A stretch of DNA of 9,160 bases from Candidatus Schekmanbacteria bacterium (GTDB lineage Bacteria; Schekmanbacteria; GWA2-38-11; J061): assembly GCA_016219965.1 (NCBI GenBank), contig JACRJM010000011.1:1-9160 (forward strand), written 5' to 3'. The position numbers were made by a program, and so were the translations under genes. The notes below the pieces were generated by a model, which was given only the letters and a program-made list of their open reading frames with translations, was not told the origin of the DNA and ran no database searches. Shown piece after piece: positions 1,199-9,160 of the stretch. The stretch's first letter is position 1. The number at the start of each line of letters is the position of its first letter.

Positions 1199-2254
1199 AT
1201 GACAACGACTCCATTAGCCTCAAGACTTGAGGGGAAAACAATAGATGATAAGTGGGAAGTCATGAGAAAGCGCATTAAGACGGAGGATGATCATAGCGGT
1301 GCATTCTCAAGCTGCTATGAAGTCAAAAACATTGAAAATGGTGAAGTTGGATTTTTGAAAGCTATAAATTATGCATACGCATTTAAAGCAACAGGGCATG
1401 GGACATCTTCAACAGTATTTTTGCAAGAATTAACGCAGAACTATAATTACGAGAAAGACTTGCTGGAATTTTGTAGGGATAATAAAATGTCAAGAATAGT
1501 ATCTGCAATTGCTCATGGTGAATATAGAGATTCAGCGGAAATGTTTCCAGTACCTTACTTGGTATTTGAAACAGCTACAGGTAGCCTCAAAAATGTAAAA
1601 CGACAAAAGCAGAAGCAGATAGATTTAGCTTGGAAGTTAGGAGTAATACATGGGTTTCTTGTAGGGTTATCACAACTTCATCAAGAAAAGATAGTGCATC
1701 AGGATATCAAACCATCGAATATTCTTATATTCGGACACAATGTATCAAAGCTGGGCGACCTTGGAAACGCAACTAAGTTTGATAATAAATCACCTATGTG
1801 GGATAACGACGGTCATTGCGGGGATTTCAGTTATGCCCATATAGAGCTTTTGTATCGTTATTTTAGTCCGGATTGGAATACTATAAGATTAGGTGCTGAC
1901 TTGTTTATGGCGGGAGGAATAATATCATATATGATTACCGACTCAAATTTCCTTTCGCTGTTGGCTGCAAACATACCGGATATATATAAACCGACTAATT
2001 TTGGAGGCACTTTCGAGGACGTTAAACCTCATCTGATGCAAGCTTATAACAAAACTATTGCCGAAATAAAAGATCGAATAGATGAACCAATCAGAAAAGA
2101 TATTATAGAAATCATTGCTCAATTCACGCATCCTGTACCTGAGCTGCGCGGTATTCCCAAGGGCTTTAATAATAGTCTGCCTCAATATTCTCTCTGGCGC
2201 TGTATATCCATAATTGATCGCCTTGCCAAGAAGGTAGAAATGGGGAAAATATGA
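1199..2254 (+). CDS. Hanks-type (eukaryotic-like) protein kinase, cytosolic
   Basis: This 351-aa protein is a protein kinase, predicted to phosphorylate Ser/Thr on an unknown partner. Visible parts in order are a degenerate glycine loop (HSGAFSSCYEV, 32-42), the ATP-anchoring lysine in GFLKAI (K54), a likely helix-C glutamate in NYNYEKDLLE (E85), the catalytic loop HQDIKPSN (167-174: D169, K171, N174) and the metal-binding DLG at 187-189 in place of DFG. A later GADLFMAGGIISYMIT helix (232-247) corresponds to the usual D-x-x-x-x-G segment. The catalytic residues are intact, so activity is plausible. HQD replaces HRD, making it a non-RD kinase that may not need activation-loop phosphorylation. 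There is no membrane segment or PASTA-type sensor, unlike PknB kinases. The start follows a strong ribosome site. The stop overlaps the next gene's start (ATGA), so it is coupled to the TPR gene. A role in defence is inferred from position. Confidence 0.88.
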   Translation: MTTTPLASRLEGKTIDDKWEVMRKRIKTEDDHSGAFSSCYEVKNIENGEVGFLKAINYAYAFKATGHGTSSTVFLQELTQNYNYEKDLLEFCRDNKMSRIVSAIAHGEYRDSAEMFPVPYLVFETATGSLKNVKRQKQKQIDLAWKLGVIHGFLVGLSQLHQEKIVHQDIKPSNILIFGHNVSKLGDLGNATKFDNKSPMWDNDGHCGDFSYAHIELLYRYFSPDWNTIRLGADLFMAGGIISYMITDSNFLSLLAANIPDIYKPTNFGGTFEDVKPHLMQAYNKTIAEIKDRIDEPIRKDIIEIIAQFTHPVPELRGIPKGFNNSLPQYSLWRCISIIDRLAKKVEMGKI

Positions 2255-3732
2255 ATAATCCCCAGACACATAAAAGAAGCCATGTTGTTCCAAAGTGGTT
2301 TGAATATCCAAAAGCGATAGAAAAAGGTGAGTTGGCTATCCCAAGGGAAACCCCTTTTGAAATAAATAGAGCGACCAAGGAAAGCATTCACATTGATTTA
2401 GAAGAGTTTAAGGCAGATTCAACACCGGAAATGGCCTGCCGTTTGATGGGCGCCGGCATAGTTATTGGTGATGAGCAACTTGCACATGATATGGCTACGT
2501 TCATAACTAAGAAAGGTGGGGTGGATCCATTATCAATTAAACTCGCAGATAAGATATTGAATGTTAATAGTGAGATAGAGAATGTGTCAGAAGTAAGTGT
2601 TCGTATTTCTAAGCTACGAAAATGGGTGTCAGAATACCCAAACAGCGCAATAGCGTGGATTGAGCTGTCAAGGGCATTTACAATAAAAGGACAGAATGAG
2701 AAGGCAAAGAGAGCAGCAAAAAATGCCATCCAACTTGCACCTTATGACCGTTATATAGTTAGATGTGCTGTAAGGTTATTCCTTCATACGGGTGATTTTG
2801 ACATAGCGTGGCATTATATAAAGAGGGCATCGAAGCACCATTTTGACCCTTGGATCAAGGCAACAGAAGTGAATGTTGCCCTTATATCAGAACATCAGAC
2901 TCCTGATATAAATAAGTTCATCCCGCAGGATCTTTCTGGGGATCGGTTATTCCATTATTCTGAACTGCTTGAAAGTGCCGGCTATCTTGAGCTTAATTCA
3001 GGGAACGAGAGAAAGGCAAAGAAACAGCTTCGGCTCGCTTGGACAAAACCAAGCGAGAATGTTATTTCACATGCAGAATGGCTTCTCAGGAATAAAATAC
3101 CTTGGATGAGGGAAACGACATTATTGGAGTTTGGGCGAAGTCTTGAGGCAACAACATGGATAAATTATATAAACTTCAAACTAATGGAGGCATTAGATGC
3201 TGCACGGGAATGGGAATTGGAAGAACCATACTCAAAATATCCATTTGTTGTAGGATCAAGTATAGCCTGTAGTGCCGGTAAGCCAGAGATTGGCGTAGAA
3301 ATAGCAATGAGAGGTTTACATAGTAATCCACATGACAGAACAATTTATAATAATCTATGCTATTCATTACTAAGAGTGGGGAAAGTTGAGGAGGCTGGTA
3401 AATATATTAATAAACTCAAGGTTACAAAAGGGCCGGAATCAGATATATACTGTCAAGCAACTATAGGATTGTATGAGTTTAAAAACAAAAATATTGATGG
3501 GGGACGACAAACCTATCGTAAAGTTATTGAGCAATTCAAACAAAACGGAGAGCCTCAGTTGCAGGCAGAAGCTTTGTTGAATTTTGCACTTGCTGAAGTA
3601 GAATCCTCAACGGCTGAAGCAAAAATAATAGCCACTAAATCATTGGAAAGAACTGAAACAATGAAATCTCCTGAAATCATTCTGCTTCGTAATCTTGTGC
3701 AGAATAAATTGAATTTGCTTAATAAAAGTTAG
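2251..3732 (+). CDS. TPR-repeat protein coupled to the kinase
   Basis: The 493-aa product has tetratricopeptide-like helical pairs. The clearest are at 131-164 (NSAIAWIELSRAFTIKGQNE then KAKRAAKNAIQLAP), 165-198, about 326-360 and 361-394 (IYNNLCYSLLRVGKVEEAGKYINKL), with a further one at about 395-430. Residues 1-120 are not TPR and match no domain I recognise; they open with a basic stretch, HKRSHVVPKWFEYP. No signal peptide or membrane segment is seen. TPR arrays bind peptides or partner proteins, so this is probably the kinase's scaffold, substrate or sensor. Translation starts at ATG 2251 with GGGG at 2242-2245 upstream, and the ATG shares bases with the kinase stop, implying coordinated synthesis. 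Specific function is unknown. Confidence 0.82.
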   Translation: MNNPQTHKRSHVVPKWFEYPKAIEKGELAIPRETPFEINRATKESIHIDLEEFKADSTPEMACRLMGAGIVIGDEQLAHDMATFITKKGGVDPLSIKLADKILNVNSEIENVSEVSVRISKLRKWVSEYPNSAIAWIELSRAFTIKGQNEKAKRAAKNAIQLAPYDRYIVRCAVRLFLHTGDFDIAWHYIKRASKHHFDPWIKATEVNVALISEHQTPDINKFIPQDLSGDRLFHYSELLESAGYLELNSGNERKAKKQLRLAWTKPSENVISHAEWLLRNKIPWMRETTLLEFGRSLEATTWINYINFKLMEALDAAREWELEEPYSKYPFVVGSSIACSAGKPEIGVEIAMRGLHSNPHDRTIYNNLCYSLLRVGKVEEAGKYINKLKVTKGPESDIYCQATIGLYEFKNKNIDGGRQTYRKVIEQFKQNGEPQLQAEALLNFALAEVESSTAEAKIIATKSLERTETMKSPEIILLRNLVQNKLNLLNKS

Positions 3733-3868: not shown

Positions 3869-5620
3869 ATGTTCCTTAAGAAGCTCTCAATAAAAAAGTT
3901 TCGATGTATAGAAAATTTAACACTCGATTTTCATAAAGGGGTAAATATCCTTATTGGCGAAAACAACTCTGGCAAAACAGCAATTATTGATGCCTTACGA
4001 ATATGTTTTAGTTATGGAAATCAATATCGTGACACTTATGTTGCCATTAATGATTTCTTTATCGATACTACAAGTCCATCCAGAGAACTCACAGATATTG
4101 AGTTTGACTTAATCTTTGAAATTGTCAATGACGAAAAGGCGGGTATTTTTTATGATATGTTATCAGTGGGTGAAGAAAGGAAAAAGGAGTTGCAGCTTCA
4201 TTTCAGATATTCCATAAATGAAAAAAGTGGAAGCAAAAAGGTTAGATATAAAGTCTGGGGAGGAGAGAATGAGGGACAATCGGTAGCTCCTGAAGTACTT
4301 GAATTGATATACGCTGTTTATCTTGGCCCCTTAAGGGATGCGGTACAGAGTCTCAGGCCCGTTAAAGGAAATATACTGGGCGATTTATATTCTAATATTG
4401 AACAGGACTCAGATAAGCAACAATGTCTTGCCGGCAAGGTACACAATCTCTTGCAGGATGATACCGAGTGGCGTAGCCTTATTAACTCAGGAAAGGATGC
4501 AGTTAATGAACATATAAAGAAGACCTCAATATTGGGTAAGCAATATAGCGTTGATATTGAGTTTCTTCCTTTCGAGTTCAGGAGAATATTAGATACGCTG
4601 AGAATTCAAATACCGATTTATGATAACCTTTCTGAAGGTACCACAGTCGAAAGAAAGTATTTTAACCTTGCCGAGTATGGTCTGGGATATAACAACCTCA
4701 TCTACATGGCAGTAGTATTGGGTAATTTGACAAGGCGCAAGGAGGTTGAGGCAGATACATATATTTCCTTATTGCTTGAAGAGCCGGAAGCGCACCTCCA
4801 TCCTCAACTGCAAAATATCCTTTTTGCTTATCTAAACGAGATAAATGATAAAGGCATTCAGATATTCATAACCTCACATTCACCAACGATAACAGCAAAA
4901 GCAAACTTAGATTCTCTAATTGTGTTACAGAACCAGGATAAATCAATTTATTCTCTTCCTCTTATCAATTCAAATCTTGATGAGAATAACAGGAAATATC
5001 TGCAAAAATTCTTAGATGTCACGAAATCACAGTTCTTCTTTTCTAGTGGCGTAATTCTTGTTGAGGGTATATCGGAGGCGCTCTTATTGCCAGTCTTTTC
5101 AAGAATAATGGGAAAAGGATATAACTTAGAAAAGAATGGGATCGAAATTGTGAACATTAATGGAGTTGCTTTTGAGCATTTCGGCAAATTGTTCAACCCT
5201 GAATTACTTGAACAAGGTCTTCGGTGCCGATGCGCAATTCTAACTGATGATGATCTGAATAGGGAGACGGATGAGATATCATCTCGAGCAAAGAAGGCAA
5301 AAGACCTTGAAAAGAGTAACCTGAAGGTTGAGCTTGCAAAAGAAACCTTTGAGTTTGAACTTTTTATGGCTGGGAACAAAGATTTACTGCTCTCAATTTT
5401 CAATGAGATGCATCCAAGAGCTGCACAAAATATTACCGAAGGCAATACAATTGAAGAACATTCAAGAAGTTTCGTAGATAAGGTAATTTCTAACAAAGCA
5501 AAGTCAGAGTTGTCACACAGGCTTTCAGTATTGCTTGCTGAACGTGAAGATATTAGAAATAACTTCACGGTGCCTGAATATATTCAAAATGCTATTCGAT
5601 GGGTGGTCAAGGGTGAGTAA
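3869..5620 (+). CDS. gajA: OLD-family ATPase/Toprim endonuclease, GajA-like (class 2 OLD)
   Basis: This 583-aa protein couples an ABC-type ATPase to a Toprim DNA nuclease. The ATPase shows Walker A GENNSGKT (30-37), a signature-like YGLGYNNLIY (270-279), Walker B LLLEEPEAHLHP (301-312) and a switch histidine in ITSHSP (334-339). The Toprim half has the metal-binding glutamate in ILVEGISEALLLP (396-408), NGVAFEHFGKL (431-441), the acidic triad in AILTDDDLNR (456-465), and TFEFELF (493-499), equivalent to the TLEYDL-like motif of OLD nucleases. All key acidic residues seem present. Length is close to the roughly 580 aa I recall for GajA. The immediately overlapping UvrD-like helicase gene is the hallmark of class 2 OLD/Gabija systems, in which the nuclease and helicase form one anti-phage complex. 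The symbol is a family-level assignment; a non-Gabija class 2 OLD protein cannot be excluded. Confidence 0.85.
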   Translation: MFLKKLSIKKFRCIENLTLDFHKGVNILIGENNSGKTAIIDALRICFSYGNQYRDTYVAINDFFIDTTSPSRELTDIEFDLIFEIVNDEKAGIFYDMLSVGEERKKELQLHFRYSINEKSGSKKVRYKVWGGENEGQSVAPEVLELIYAVYLGPLRDAVQSLRPVKGNILGDLYSNIEQDSDKQQCLAGKVHNLLQDDTEWRSLINSGKDAVNEHIKKTSILGKQYSVDIEFLPFEFRRILDTLRIQIPIYDNLSEGTTVERKYFNLAEYGLGYNNLIYMAVVLGNLTRRKEVEADTYISLLLEEPEAHLHPQLQNILFAYLNEINDKGIQIFITSHSPTITAKANLDSLIVLQNQDKSIYSLPLINSNLDENNRKYLQKFLDVTKSQFFFSSGVILVEGISEALLLPVFSRIMGKGYNLEKNGIEIVNINGVAFEHFGKLFNPELLEQGLRCRCAILTDDDLNRETDEISSRAKKAKDLEKSNLKVELAKETFEFELFMAGNKDLLLSIFNEMHPRAAQNITEGNTIEEHSRSFVDKVISNKAKSELSHRLSVLLAEREDIRNNFTVPEYIQNAIRWVVKGE

Positions 5621-7325
5621 CGCATTCGAATCATTGTCGGACATCCAGAAGACCATTGTCTTTGATAAGAAAGGCAAGTTTGTTGTGCGGGCTTGTCCCG
5701 GTAGTGGTAAGACATATTCCGTAGCGGCACGACTTGCACGTTTAATTGGAGAATGGGACAAAAAACAACAGGGCATTGCAGCTATTTCTTTTACGAATGC
5801 TGCTTGGCAGGAAATAAGACACCAACTTGAAACACACTTTGGAATTGCTACAAGTATTAGCTATCCTCACTTCTTAGGCACTATAGATAGCTTTATCAAT
5901 CAGAACATATTTCTACCATTTGGGCATCTTGCCCTGGGGTGCAAAAAAAGACCTGAATTAGTTGGAGAGCCTTACGGTCCTTGGTATGGAAAAAAATATT
6001 CTGATAAATTGTTTGATAATATTACATTTAATATAAACGATAACCTTGTAGCCCTTAATAAACTGCGCATGCCGAAAAACTGGGTATCAAATCAGTATAT
6101 ATGTAAAGCAAAGGAAGGATTTCTTAAGGCTGGTTTTGCTATTCAGCATGATGCCGACTATTATGCGATGAAACTCCTTGAGAAGTATCCTCAAGTTGCC
6201 GCTGCTTTAGCTTATAGATATCCGACACTGATAATTGATGAAGCACAAGATACATCTGATATTCAGATGCGGATTATAGACATCTTAATATCTCATGGTC
6301 TAAGGGAACTTATGTTAGTTGGAGATCCCGACCAAGCAATTTTTGAATGGAATGACGCAAAACCACAACTGTTTCTCCAAAAATATAATGAATGGCGGGA
6401 AGAGTCTATTAAATTAAATGAAAACCGACGCAGTTCACAGAAAATTTGTGACTGCACATTCAAATTGTCATCACTGCATGAGACCTCTATGGCAGTGACG
6501 GAAGAAGTTAAGGACTGCACTTTCTCCCCCATCGTTATAACCTATGATTCAGGTAATATTAATACAACTATTGAATACTTTATCTCACTATGTCATGAGA
6601 ATGGAATCGTAGTTAATAGAGAAAATGTGGCAGTTATTTATAGAAGTAAAGAAATTTTCAATCTAATTACAGGCATCGTGCCTATAAATCAAGAACCCTG
6701 GAGAGATGGAGATTACCATACAAAGGACTTTGCGAAAGGCAAATATTTATTTGATGCAAGAGAGATCAAGAAGGGATTGCTGCTAATCGAGAAGGCATAT
6801 ATAAAAATGATGACTGGAAATACAACATGCAATCCACTGGAGATTGAGAAAAGGATAAACGATGTTGGATTCACCACGCATAGAAAAGAGATTCATAAAG
6901 TTTTATATATCTTGCCTGAAACTACATGCAGTATCGGGGAATGGGTTGATAGAACAAACGAGGGATTTGCCTTGAGCAACATGAAATCATCCTTATCAAT
7001 AAACGATTCCATGAGAGATGTTATGAGAGATGTTACGTTTAAACAGATATTCAGAAACGAAAATGAAGCACTTCAGTGTCGAGACTATAGGCTTGGGACT
7101 GTCCACTCAGTAAAGGGAGAAACCTTTGAAGCGGTATTGTTATTCCTTAAACAGAAGGGAATTGGCAAATATTATAAGACCTTGATAAGAGAGGGTGCTT
7201 CGATTTCAGACAATGAAGAACTTAGGATAGTATATGTGGGCTTAACAAGGCCGAGAAAATTACTTGTTCTCGCTGTGCCAGATAATGAAAACAAGCAGGT
7301 CTGGGAATCAAAACTCTTATCCTGA
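5613..7325 (+). CDS. gajB: UvrD/Rep-type superfamily 1 DNA helicase, GajB-like
   Basis: The product carries all core SF1 helicase motifs. Numbered from GTG 5613 these are a Q-like motif LSDIQ (8-12), Walker A CPGSGKT (28-34), Ia ISFTNAAWQEI (59-69), Ib GTIDSF (89-94), Walker B IIDEAQD (207-213), III LVGDPDQAIFEW (235-246), IV NENRRS (269-274), V VHSVKGETFE (497-506) and VI YVGLTRPRK (541-549). It is 570 aa from this start, somewhat longer than the roughly 490-500 aa I recall for characterised GajB. The start is ambiguous: GTG 5613 gives an 8-base overlap with the OLD stop, while ATG 5589 gives 578 aa and a longer overlap; neither has a strong ribosome site, which fits translational coupling. 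In Gabija the helicase partner regulates or processes DNA for the nuclease; here that role is inferred from the pairing. Confidence 0.87.
   Translation: MSNAFESLSDIQKTIVFDKKGKFVVRACPGSGKTYSVAARLARLIGEWDKKQQGIAAISFTNAAWQEIRHQLETHFGIATSISYPHFLGTIDSFINQNIFLPFGHLALGCKKRPELVGEPYGPWYGKKYSDKLFDNITFNINDNLVALNKLRMPKNWVSNQYICKAKEGFLKAGFAIQHDADYYAMKLLEKYPQVAAALAYRYPTLIIDEAQDTSDIQMRIIDILISHGLRELMLVGDPDQAIFEWNDAKPQLFLQKYNEWREESIKLNENRRSSQKICDCTFKLSSLHETSMAVTEEVKDCTFSPIVITYDSGNINTTIEYFISLCHENGIVVNRENVAVIYRSKEIFNLITGIVPINQEPWRDGDYHTKDFAKGKYLFDAREIKKGLLLIEKAYIKMMTGNTTCNPLEIEKRINDVGFTTHRKEIHKVLYILPETTCSIGEWVDRTNEGFALSNMKSSLSINDSMRDVMRDVTFKQIFRNENEALQCRDYRLGTVHSVKGETFEAVLLFLKQKGIGKYYKTLIREGASISDNEELRIVYVGLTRPRKLLVLAVPDNENKQVWESKLLS
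7011..7034. repeat. Perfect 12-bp tandem duplication in the helicase gene
   Basis: ATGAGAGATGTT occurs twice back to back (7011-7022 and 7023-7034), encoding MRDVMRDV at residues 467-474, just ahead of motif V. It is in frame, so it looks like a recent slippage duplication that the protein tolerates. Confidence 0.85.
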
Positions 7326-7386
7326 GGTGATGGAGTAAAATTTGGATAAGAAATTTATAAGTTCATTATCCGCACTGTCGGATAAT
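7316..7386. promoter_or_regulatory. Alternating TTATCC/GGATAA inverted repeats around a translation start
   Basis: CTTATCC (7316-7322) pairs with GGATAAG (7344-7350), enclosing the helicase stop, the GGAG ribosome site (7332-7335) and most of the TTG start of the next ORF. Just downstream ATTATCCG (7365-7372) and CGGATAAT (7379-7386) form a perfect 8-bp stem with a 6-base loop. The second and third elements could also pair with each other, giving mutually exclusive RNA folds. This may be a translational switch for the small ORF and coupled mod gene, or a clustered protein-binding site. Confidence 0.5.
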
Positions 7387-7488
7387 AAAGAAGTTTTGCC
7401 GCAGTTTATTAATGTAAACAAGGAGTTACAGGAAGTTTTATTATCCTGCAGGAAGAAAATGATAGCAGGCAAGGTAAAAGAAGAATGA
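7342..7488 (+). CDS. 48-aa hypothetical protein between the helicase and mod
   Basis: This ORF starts at TTG 7342 and opens LDKKFISSLSALSDN. GGAG at 7332-7335 is 6 bases upstream, and an ATG at 7330 is followed almost at once by TAA, so it is not the start. The product is predicted to be a small helical, mildly basic cytosolic protein with no cysteine cluster or membrane segment. Its TGA overlaps the ATG of mod as ATGA, and it begins 16 bases after the helicase stop, so it links both neighbours in one transcription unit. I do not recognise a family. It may be a leader peptide for mod, an accessory R-M protein, or the tail of a lost gene. Confidence 0.55.
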   Translation: MDKKFISSLSALSDNKEVLPQFINVNKELQEVLLSCRKKMIAGKVKEE

Positions 7489-9160
7489 CGAATAAAAACC
7501 AGAAACTTGAACTCACATGGATAGGCAAGGAGAATCAGCCGAGGCTGGAGCCTAGGATATTGATTGAAGACGCTGGAAGGTCTTACCCCCCGCAGTCCCC
7601 CCTTATTAAGTGGGGAAGTAAAGGGGTAGTCGAAAACATGCTTATCCAGGGTGACAACCTCCTTGCTCTGAAGGCACTTGAGCAGGATTTTGCAGGGAAG
7701 GTCAAGTGCATCTATATTGACCCGCCTTATAATACCGGCAATGCGTTTGAACATTATGATGATGGGCTGGAGCATTCAATATGGCTGAGTCTGATGAAGC
7801 CGAGGATTGAGATGTTGCATAGGTTGTTGAGCAATGACGGTACGCTCTGGATTTCTATTGATGACAATGAGAGCCATTATCTGAAGGTGTTGTGTGATGA
7901 GGTTTTTGGAAGGAAGAACTTTGTAAATAATGTGATATGGGAAAAGAAATATTCTCCACAGAATGATGCAAAATGGCTTTCGGACAGCCATGATCATCTT
8001 CTGGTCTATGCAAAGGACAAAGAGATATGGAGACCGAATCTATTGCCGAGAACAGAGGAGATGGATGCCAGATATAAGAATCCTGACAATGATCCGAGAG
8101 GTCTGTGGAAATCAAGTGATATGTCAGTAAAAACATATACTGCTGCAACGGACTATCCTATTACCCTTCCTTCTGGCCGCATCGTTAATCCTCCAGAAAG
8201 TAGATGTTGGGTTATTTCAAAAGGAAAATATGAAGATATGGTCAAAGATAACAGGATTTGGTTTGGACGAGATGGTAATAGTGTTCCCTCAATCAAACGT
8301 TTCTTATCTGAAGTTCAGGAGGGAACTGTTTCTAAAACCATCTGGTACAGAACAGAGGTTGGCGATAATCAGGAGGCAAAACGTGAGATAAAGGTATTCA
8401 ATGATGACGATGTCTTTCAGACCCCAAAGCCAGAACGTTTAATTCAACGCATTCTTACCTTAGCAAGCAATGAAGGCGACCTTGTCCTTGACTCCTTCCT
8501 CGGCTCCGGCACGACCGCTGCTGTTGCCCATAAGATGAAACGGAGATGGATCGGCATTGAGCTTGGCGAGCATTGCTATACACATTGCCTGCCCCGATTG
8601 AAAAAGGTTGTTGACGGCACGGATGAGGGCGGCATATCCAAAGCCGTAAACTGGCAGGGCGGAGGAGGTTTCAAATACTATTACCTGGCGCCGAGTCTGC
8701 TGAAAGAGGATAAACACGGCAACTGGGTGTTTGATGAGCGGTATAATGCCGACATGCTGGCCGCTGCGATGGCAAAGCATGAGAGTTTTAAATACTCCCC
8801 TGATGAGCAGATTTACTGGAAGCAGGGGAGGTCAACGGAGAAGGATTATATCTTTACAACCACAAACTTTGTCACTGTTGAGTTTCTCGATAAAATCCAC
8901 GAAGAGATGCAGCCTGACGAGAGCCTGCTGATCTGCTGTAAGTCCTTCTCAAAGGCGTGTGAGAGTAGATACCTGAATATTACTGTCAGGAAGATTCCAA
9001 AGATGCTCCTGGGCCGCTCCGAATTTGGAAAAGAGGATTATAGCCTGAATATTGTGAATATGCCGGTTGATGAAAATGAACCGCAACCCGATCCGGTTAA
9101 AGTACAGAATAAATCAGCACTCAAGATTAAAGACAAGACACAGGGGGAGCTTTTTGTTGA
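7485..9160 (+). CDS. mod: Type III restriction-modification DNA methyltransferase (Mod), 3' end outside the window
   Basis: The frame is open from ATG 7485 to the right edge, with 558 complete codons and no stop. It is the modification and recognition subunit of a type III R-M system, transferring methyl from S-adenosylmethionine to a base, most likely adenine N6. Motif IV DPPYN is at 79-83, the middle (about 145-315) is the target-recognition region, and motif I DSFLGSGTTA is at 336-345, so the order IV-TRD-I is that of beta-class enzymes. NWQGGGGFKYYYLAPSLL follows, then the C-terminal domain typical of COG2189 Mod proteins. The last residues (KTQGELFV) look close to a natural end. The start overlaps the small ORF by ATGA and has only a weak ribosome site, implying coupling. 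Two oddities are a 15-codon palindromic insert at residues 34-48 and a sharp GC step after the recognition region. A res gene is expected next. Confidence 0.92.
   Translation, partial: MTNKNQKLELTWIGKENQPRLEPRILIEDAGRSYPPQSPLIKWGSKGVVENMLIQGDNLLALKALEQDFAGKVKCIYIDPPYNTGNAFEHYDDGLEHSIWLSLMKPRIEMLHRLLSNDGTLWISIDDNESHYLKVLCDEVFGRKNFVNNVIWEKKYSPQNDAKWLSDSHDHLLVYAKDKEIWRPNLLPRTEEMDARYKNPDNDPRGLWKSSDMSVKTYTAATDYPITLPSGRIVNPPESRCWVISKGKYEDMVKDNRIWFGRDGNSVPSIKRFLSEVQEGTVSKTIWYRTEVGDNQEAKREIKVFNDDDVFQTPKPERLIQRILTLASNEGDLVLDSFLGSGTTAAVAHKMKRRWIGIELGEHCYTHCLPRLKKVVDGTDEGGISKAVNWQGGGGFKYYYLAPSLLKEDKHGNWVFDERYNADMLAAAMAKHESFKYSPDEQIYWKQGRSTEKDYIFTTTNFVTVEFLDKIHEEMQPDESLLICCKSFSKACESRYLNITVRKIPKMLLGRSEFGKEDYSLNIVNMPVDENEPQPDPVKVQNKSALKIKDKTQGELFV
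7584..7628. repeat. 45-bp palindromic repeat element inserted in frame in mod (SPLNKGGLRGV type)
   Basis: The element opens TACCCC and closes GGGGTA, with an inner imperfect inverted repeat CCCCCCTTATTAAGTGGGG (7597-7615). It is exactly 15 codons long and adds YPPQSPLIKWGSKGV to Mod between the RILIEDAGRS segment and ENMLIQGDNLLAL, which are normally close together in this family. The antisense reading gives SPLNKGGLRGV, the peptide I recall from a widely dispersed C/G-rich palindromic repeat often mis-called as protein. It resembles, in behaviour, the protein-coding palindromic elements of Rickettsia. Element ends are judged by eye. Confidence 0.75.

Follow-up and report, generated by a model that had tools for sequence, protein, structure and literature searches.

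Protein kinases recur in phage defence, and for few of them are the trigger and the aiming known. Some, like MADS mad6 and BREX PglW, act within multi-gene defence systems, and the PD-T4-6 kinases bring a defence kinase domain that, to our knowledge, is defined without a coupled TPR gene. Stk2, an abortive-infection kinase of Staphylococcus (PMC6532042), is a eukaryotic-like Ser/Thr kinase serving phage defence from a single gene, without a TPR partner. A two-gene defence made of a kinase and a partner is represented by DS-6/HipAD, a system that defends E. coli against phage and depends on the catalytic residue of the kinase; its kinase is of the HipA family and its partner is a DUF3037/DUF1829 protein rather than a TPR protein (PMC13092281). 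Finally, the phage defence candidates (PDC) came from a guilt-by-embedding search and mostly await validation (PMC12988326).

One of these candidates, PDC-M71, has the same arrangement as the gene pair analysed here, in which a kinase gene is followed by a gene for a TPR protein; both proteins match over their full length, and we found no defining difference between the two. PADLOC-DB 2.0.0 (2023) already holds profiles, PDC-M71A and PDC-M71B, for precisely this combination. The kinase matches PDC-M71A (PDLC04780) with 323.7 bits and an E value of 4e-97 (residues 6-348 aligned to 8-347 of 352), and the TPR protein matches PDC-M71B (PDLC04781) with 303 bits and an E value of 1e-90 (residues 1-486 aligned to 1-508 of 515), in both cases over the full length and with the genes adjacent. 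We conclude that the pair is a member of a candidate defence family that had already been listed. The original prediction had called the module possibly undescribed; this fails with respect to the database, and it stands for the literature that we searched, where we found no paper naming PDC-M71 or testing it experimentally. The existence of the family is thus not what is new; the novelty lies in its anatomy, its boundaries and how it is likely to work.

Known defence kinases match the kinase of this pair weakly. Stk2 reaches 28.7 bits over residues 137-247 only, as against 324 bits for PDC-M71A, and PD-T4-6 reaches 47 bits at best. With mad6 and PglW the kinase core alone aligns (61 and 11 bits, respectively); measured against the curated scores, MADS6 reaches 36 of 460 bits and PglW 11 of 990 bits, and the partner genes of both systems are absent from the window. 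Among the kinase systems described in the main-text passages on DefensePredictor that the search covered, none is a published experimental match.

The window, by which we mean the whole stretch of DNA analysed, is one complete contig of 9160 bp from an 18-contig, 3.58-Mb genome, so the neighbourhood of the pair could be read only within those 9160 bp. Just four species of the host phylum were searchable. The tetranucleotide profile of the window correlates with that of its own genome at r 0.946, in line with nine other contigs (0.885-0.972), and there is thus no sign of a mis-binned contig. From left to right the window carries ATPase/winged-helix remnants, the kinase gene (351 aa; 1199..2254), the TPR gene (493 aa; 2251..3732), gajA (Gabija ATPase/TOPRIM; 3869..5620), gajB (UvrD-like helicase; 5613..7325) and a type III DNA methyltransferase gene (mod) that runs off the contig (7485..9160), with all genes from the kinase onward on the + strand. 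The kinase and TPR genes share an ATGA stop-start overlap (2251..2254, +). The three downstream neighbours, which lie outside the pair, match PADLOC profiles PDLC00091 (520 bits), PDLC00138 (632 bits) and PDLC03636 (665 bits).

The remnants, AlbA/RecG-C-type ATPase and winged-helix genes at 163-1123, are two partial genes, an HATPase_c_4 domain with a winged helix and then a second winged-helix piece. Both end C-terminally in GPDKGxHWEIVD, and together they look like a decayed partial duplication; no ORF similar to the winged-helix fragment at 749-1123 was present in the relatives compared. A small unannotated frame of about 48 residues with a TTG start (7341-7487) has a stop that overlaps the start of mod. 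A search for a non-coding RNA partner with Rfam gave zero matches in the window.

The kinase matches the Pfam Pkinase model (61 bits, E 1e-16), and its AlphaFold2 model (pLDDT 88, pTM 0.89) shows a full kinase fold whose best matches are SRPK/CLK kinases, at Z about 25 across 270-280 residues. Among 27 family members, the beta-3 lysine K54 (1358..1360, +) and the alpha-C glutamate E85 (1451..1453, +) are invariant. The catalytic loop, HQDIKPSN (residues 167-174; 1697..1720, +), is of the non-RD type with D169 as catalytic base; H167, D169, K171 and N174 are invariant and Q168 is found in 26/27. The metal-binding motif is DLG (187-189; 1757..1765, +) in place of DFG, with D187 and G189 invariant and the middle position L in 23 members and F in 4. 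The entire catalytic set (K54, E85, H167, D169, K171, N174, D187, G189) is therefore unchanged in 27/27 homologues, and, with the complete fold, each element looked for in an active eukaryotic-type kinase is present: the beta-3 lysine, the alpha-C glutamate, the aspartates of HxD and DxG, and the asparagine. No hydrophobic stretch long enough to span a membrane was seen in the window's kinase. Given these invariant residues, the complete predicted fold and the lack of a membrane span, the kinase is very probably an active, soluble enzyme.

The partner matches TPR_14 and further TPR models, whereas the Pfam search assigned no domain to its first ~100 residues. Its model is all-helical (pLDDT 88), and a fold search returned OGT and other TPR superhelices, TPR-like ones included, as best matches, with low TM-scores. 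A nuclease or other enzyme domain was sought with Pfam and NCBIfam and not found, and the fold search yielded TPR/TPR-like superhelices here too. The description in the original prediction, of a catalytically plausible non-RD kinase lacking a membrane sensor, joined by an ATGA to a 493-aa TPR protein with an unassigned N-terminal domain, proved correct in coordinates, motifs and coupling, and the genes that it had placed after the pair as Gabija-like and type III mod score more strongly than 'Gabija-like' implies.

Two parts of the TPR protein are conserved. Near the N-terminus, a VVPKW motif (2284..2298, +) contains P14 and W16 (P-x-W), invariant in 27/27. Further along, the TPR signature is strongest in the repeat starting at 133, and the next repeat, residues 167-200 together with W201 (2749..2853, +), holds the invariant residues R167, R171, R175, D199, P200 and W201. 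In TPRs generally, the concave groove is lined by positions 2, 5, 9, 12, 13, 33 and 34, and since these choose the ligand they vary more than any others (PMC1261162). In repeat 167-200, by contrast, positions 5, 9, 33 and 34 (R171, R175, D199 and P200, assigned by repeat phase rather than mapped on model coordinates) show zero entropy over the 27 members, 24 of which have His at position 13, and R167 and W201 are likewise invariant. From its sequence conservation, this groove looks like a basic site for one conserved ligand; candidates would be the kinase, a host protein or substrate that is itself conserved, or a peptide that is acidic or phosphorylated. Such constancy over at least 12 phyla does not resemble a surface that tracks changing phage proteins.

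We asked how widely the two genes occur together. A TPR alignment used to scan 84,980 species genomes found 24 loci; once the window, plasmid records and one additional genome were included, 28 loci had sequence on the upstream side of the TPR gene, and the kinase lies immediately upstream in 28/28. The hosts, judged by name, belong to at least 12 phyla. Spacing was measured in 27 pairs, one of them from E. coli, and runs from -26 to +9 nt, with a 4-nt overlap in 13. Searches that began from the kinase found the TPR partner in 13/13 E. coli genomes and in 4/4 viral contigs, and kinase and TPR searches of 386 species retrieved the identical two. The PADLOC E-values and the 28/28 adjacency rule out chance or mis-called ORFs.

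The two proteins also share a history. Their distance matrices correlate at r 0.76, a value reached in none of 10,000 permutations, and their trees concur at nearly every fork with good support, with a Deinococcus plasmid copy (L003) placed differently. The nearest relatives of the window pair are in deltaproteobacterium (71% kinase and 64% TPR identity), Nitrospirota and Cloacimonadota genomes; the window shares no neighbouring gene besides the pair with these three, and no conserved third gene was found among the relatives. Upstream of the kinase, small MarR/IclR-like HTH genes occur in only two loci, both alphaproteobacterial (L005 and L016). Kinase and TPR gene are almost certainly a conserved two-gene unit, and these comparisons of sequence show the two to be inherited and moved jointly, with nothing else along.

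The boundaries of the unit are clearest in E. coli, where 13/5,426 genomes carry the pair; in EC0026B it spans L034:14497-17220. In four copies examined it lies within one integrative element that carries a DotA/TraY protein and a MobQ relaxase, joined by RepL and TraD in the better-preserved copies. The DotA/TraY gene of this element occurs in 78/5,426 genomes, and 65 of the 78 element copies lack the pair. Five copies without the pair were inspected; in these, the genes on either side of its site are ~0.37 kb apart, and in four compared with a pair-bearing copy the similarity ends ~32 bp past the DotA/TraY gene. These empty sites and the sharp end of similarity indicate that the movable unit is exactly these two genes. 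Close to this site the element also holds genes for ApeA, TIR and a reverse transcriptase; it is mobilisable and swaps its defence cargo, the pair included, at fixed spots (L033-L041), and could be mined for new systems. Elsewhere the pair resides on plasmids of Deinococcus, Arthrobacter and Rhizobium.

To survey the surroundings, we compared 69 neighbouring proteins from 24 loci with the PADLOC profiles at thresholds of 1e-15 to 1e-20. Matches were found for 18/69, in 11 loci, or in 12/25 loci with the window included. Gabija lies near the pair in the window and in Pseudomonas gingeri (L028), type I R-M genes in L009 and L018, type III genes in the window and L022, and type IIG in L023 and L030. 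Also represented are pAgo (L023), Hma and NsnB (L019), PD-T4-6 (L014), PDC-S01 (L010), a DpnI-like enzyme (L008), a mad3-like ATPase (L032) and RmrA (L022). In L018 the pair begins 12 nt past a type I methyltransferase gene, and in L019 HmaB begins 9 nt past the TPR gene. As a control, 110 proteins taken from other genomes yielded no more than 14 PADLOC matches, of which several fell on generic profiles for helicases or regulators, and against this crude control the enrichment is modest (18/69 vs at most 14/110, Fisher p 0.03). As the control is an upper bound from family tallies, the enrichment is real, though its size is imprecise; a stronger argument than this statistic comes from the tight gene runs and from how varied the neighbouring systems are. 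Several loci have no defence neighbour among the genes scanned, and defence islands collect non-defence cargo too. The original prediction had named two outcomes that would count against it, genes that are rarely neighbours in other genomes and a fixed housekeeping context; neither is borne out, as the two genes are always adjacent and the contexts of the pair are variable, mobile and rich in defence genes, and a defence setting is supported.

The type III mod of the window (7485-9158) and that of L022 (L022:13637-15178) share 59% identity over 362 residues, while the pairs of these loci are distant (kinase 38%, TPR 23% identity).

Some copies are broken. The kinase of L023 (L023:8946-10001), in the locus with pAgo and type IIG restriction, has one in-frame stop next to an intact TPR gene. 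In E. coli 0H26 and five sister genomes (0H15-0H26), an IS5 between the genes (L036:14497-18419) truncates the C-terminus of the kinase and leaves the TPR gene intact. In a Deinococcus plasmid, IS6 is found together with loss of the TPR gene. That the kinase is the damaged member in broken copies slightly favours it as the costly one; because most loci were found via the TPR gene, this bias is partly built in. An IMG/VR contig (L048:7595-8968) carries an orphan TPR homologue without a kinase and without the N-terminal P-x-W segment, adjoining phage structural genes (terminase- and portal-like ORFs, judged from sequence); it is a decayed copy, or possibly a phage-borne decoy of the system. A tblastn search of phage records with the TPR protein gave zero matches.

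What might the pair do? An antiphage or anti-mobile-element function is likely, and we infer that the pair protects its host against phage. Given defence, kinase activity is likely to be required. We lean towards a self-contained, horizontally moving two-gene immune module in which a TPR adaptor restrains or aims the kinase and infection leads to growth arrest. Infection would activate the kinase; the TPR protein, a constant adaptor rather than a fast-evolving phage sensor, would hold one conserved ligand in its groove and restrain or aim the kinase, which would phosphorylate core host proteins such that growth stops before the phage matures, as with Stk2. That the TPR protein is an adaptor or regulator of the kinase is reasonably probable, although its invariant groove could bind a ligand unrelated to the kinase, and we give growth arrest as the outcome an even chance. 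Stk2 is the precedent for the latter (PMC6532042) and DS-6/HipAD for a kinase with a partner (PMC13092281).

The same gene overlap and joint inheritance would suit an obligate pair of the toxin-antitoxin kind, with the kinase as a growth-arresting toxin, the TPR protein as its bound neutraliser and infection freeing the kinase. The readable broken pairs (L023, nonsense codon; E. coli 0H15-0H26, IS5), with kinase damaged and TPR intact, fit this reading, as does the protection of E. coli by the HipAD kinase and partner through a catalytic residue (PMC13092281). We nonetheless consider it unlikely: the bias in how loci were found weakens the broken pairs as evidence, and the TPR protein exceeds the usual size of an antitoxin and has no recognised DNA-binding domain. 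The residence of the pair in a RepL/MobQ/TraD/DotA-TraY element and on the three kinds of plasmid could instead mark a non-immune signalling or maintenance device of mobile elements, controlling transfer or replication. Such a role is improbable, as most copies of the E. coli element (65/78) do without the pair, its host elements are unrelated, and in L018 and L019 it forms tight runs with genes for restriction and for Hma. Those same runs, with type I R-M in L018 and Hma genes in L019, together with the second Gabija-associated copy in P. gingeri and a gap of 136 nt, free of any terminator-like site, between the TPR gene and gajA, would fit an accessory that modulates whichever system lies beside it, in the window Gabija or the type III methyltransferase, and is not autonomous. 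This is the least probable of the alternatives, since the neighbours differ in almost every locus and the E. coli pair stands alone between two element genes. Nor does Gabija own the pair: the kinase and TPR protein are not Gabija proteins and are mostly found without it.

For the self-contained immune module, a more specific version, which we hold less likely than not, has the TPR protein read one universally conserved acidic or phosphorylated ligand through R167/R171/R175 and D199-P200-W201 and direct the non-RD kinase to some core process of the host that is itself conserved. If true, this would make the pair an immune switch based on phospho-signalling, with a recognition part that stays the same from phylum to phylum, outside any arms race. 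The pair reduces the problem of how a defence kinase is triggered and aimed to two proteins with exact unit boundaries, in an E. coli version whose element has natural pair-less copies, and it offers residues through which, by prediction, catalysis (D169) can be told apart from the binding of a ligand (R171, R175). A database label thereby becomes a directly testable two-protein system.
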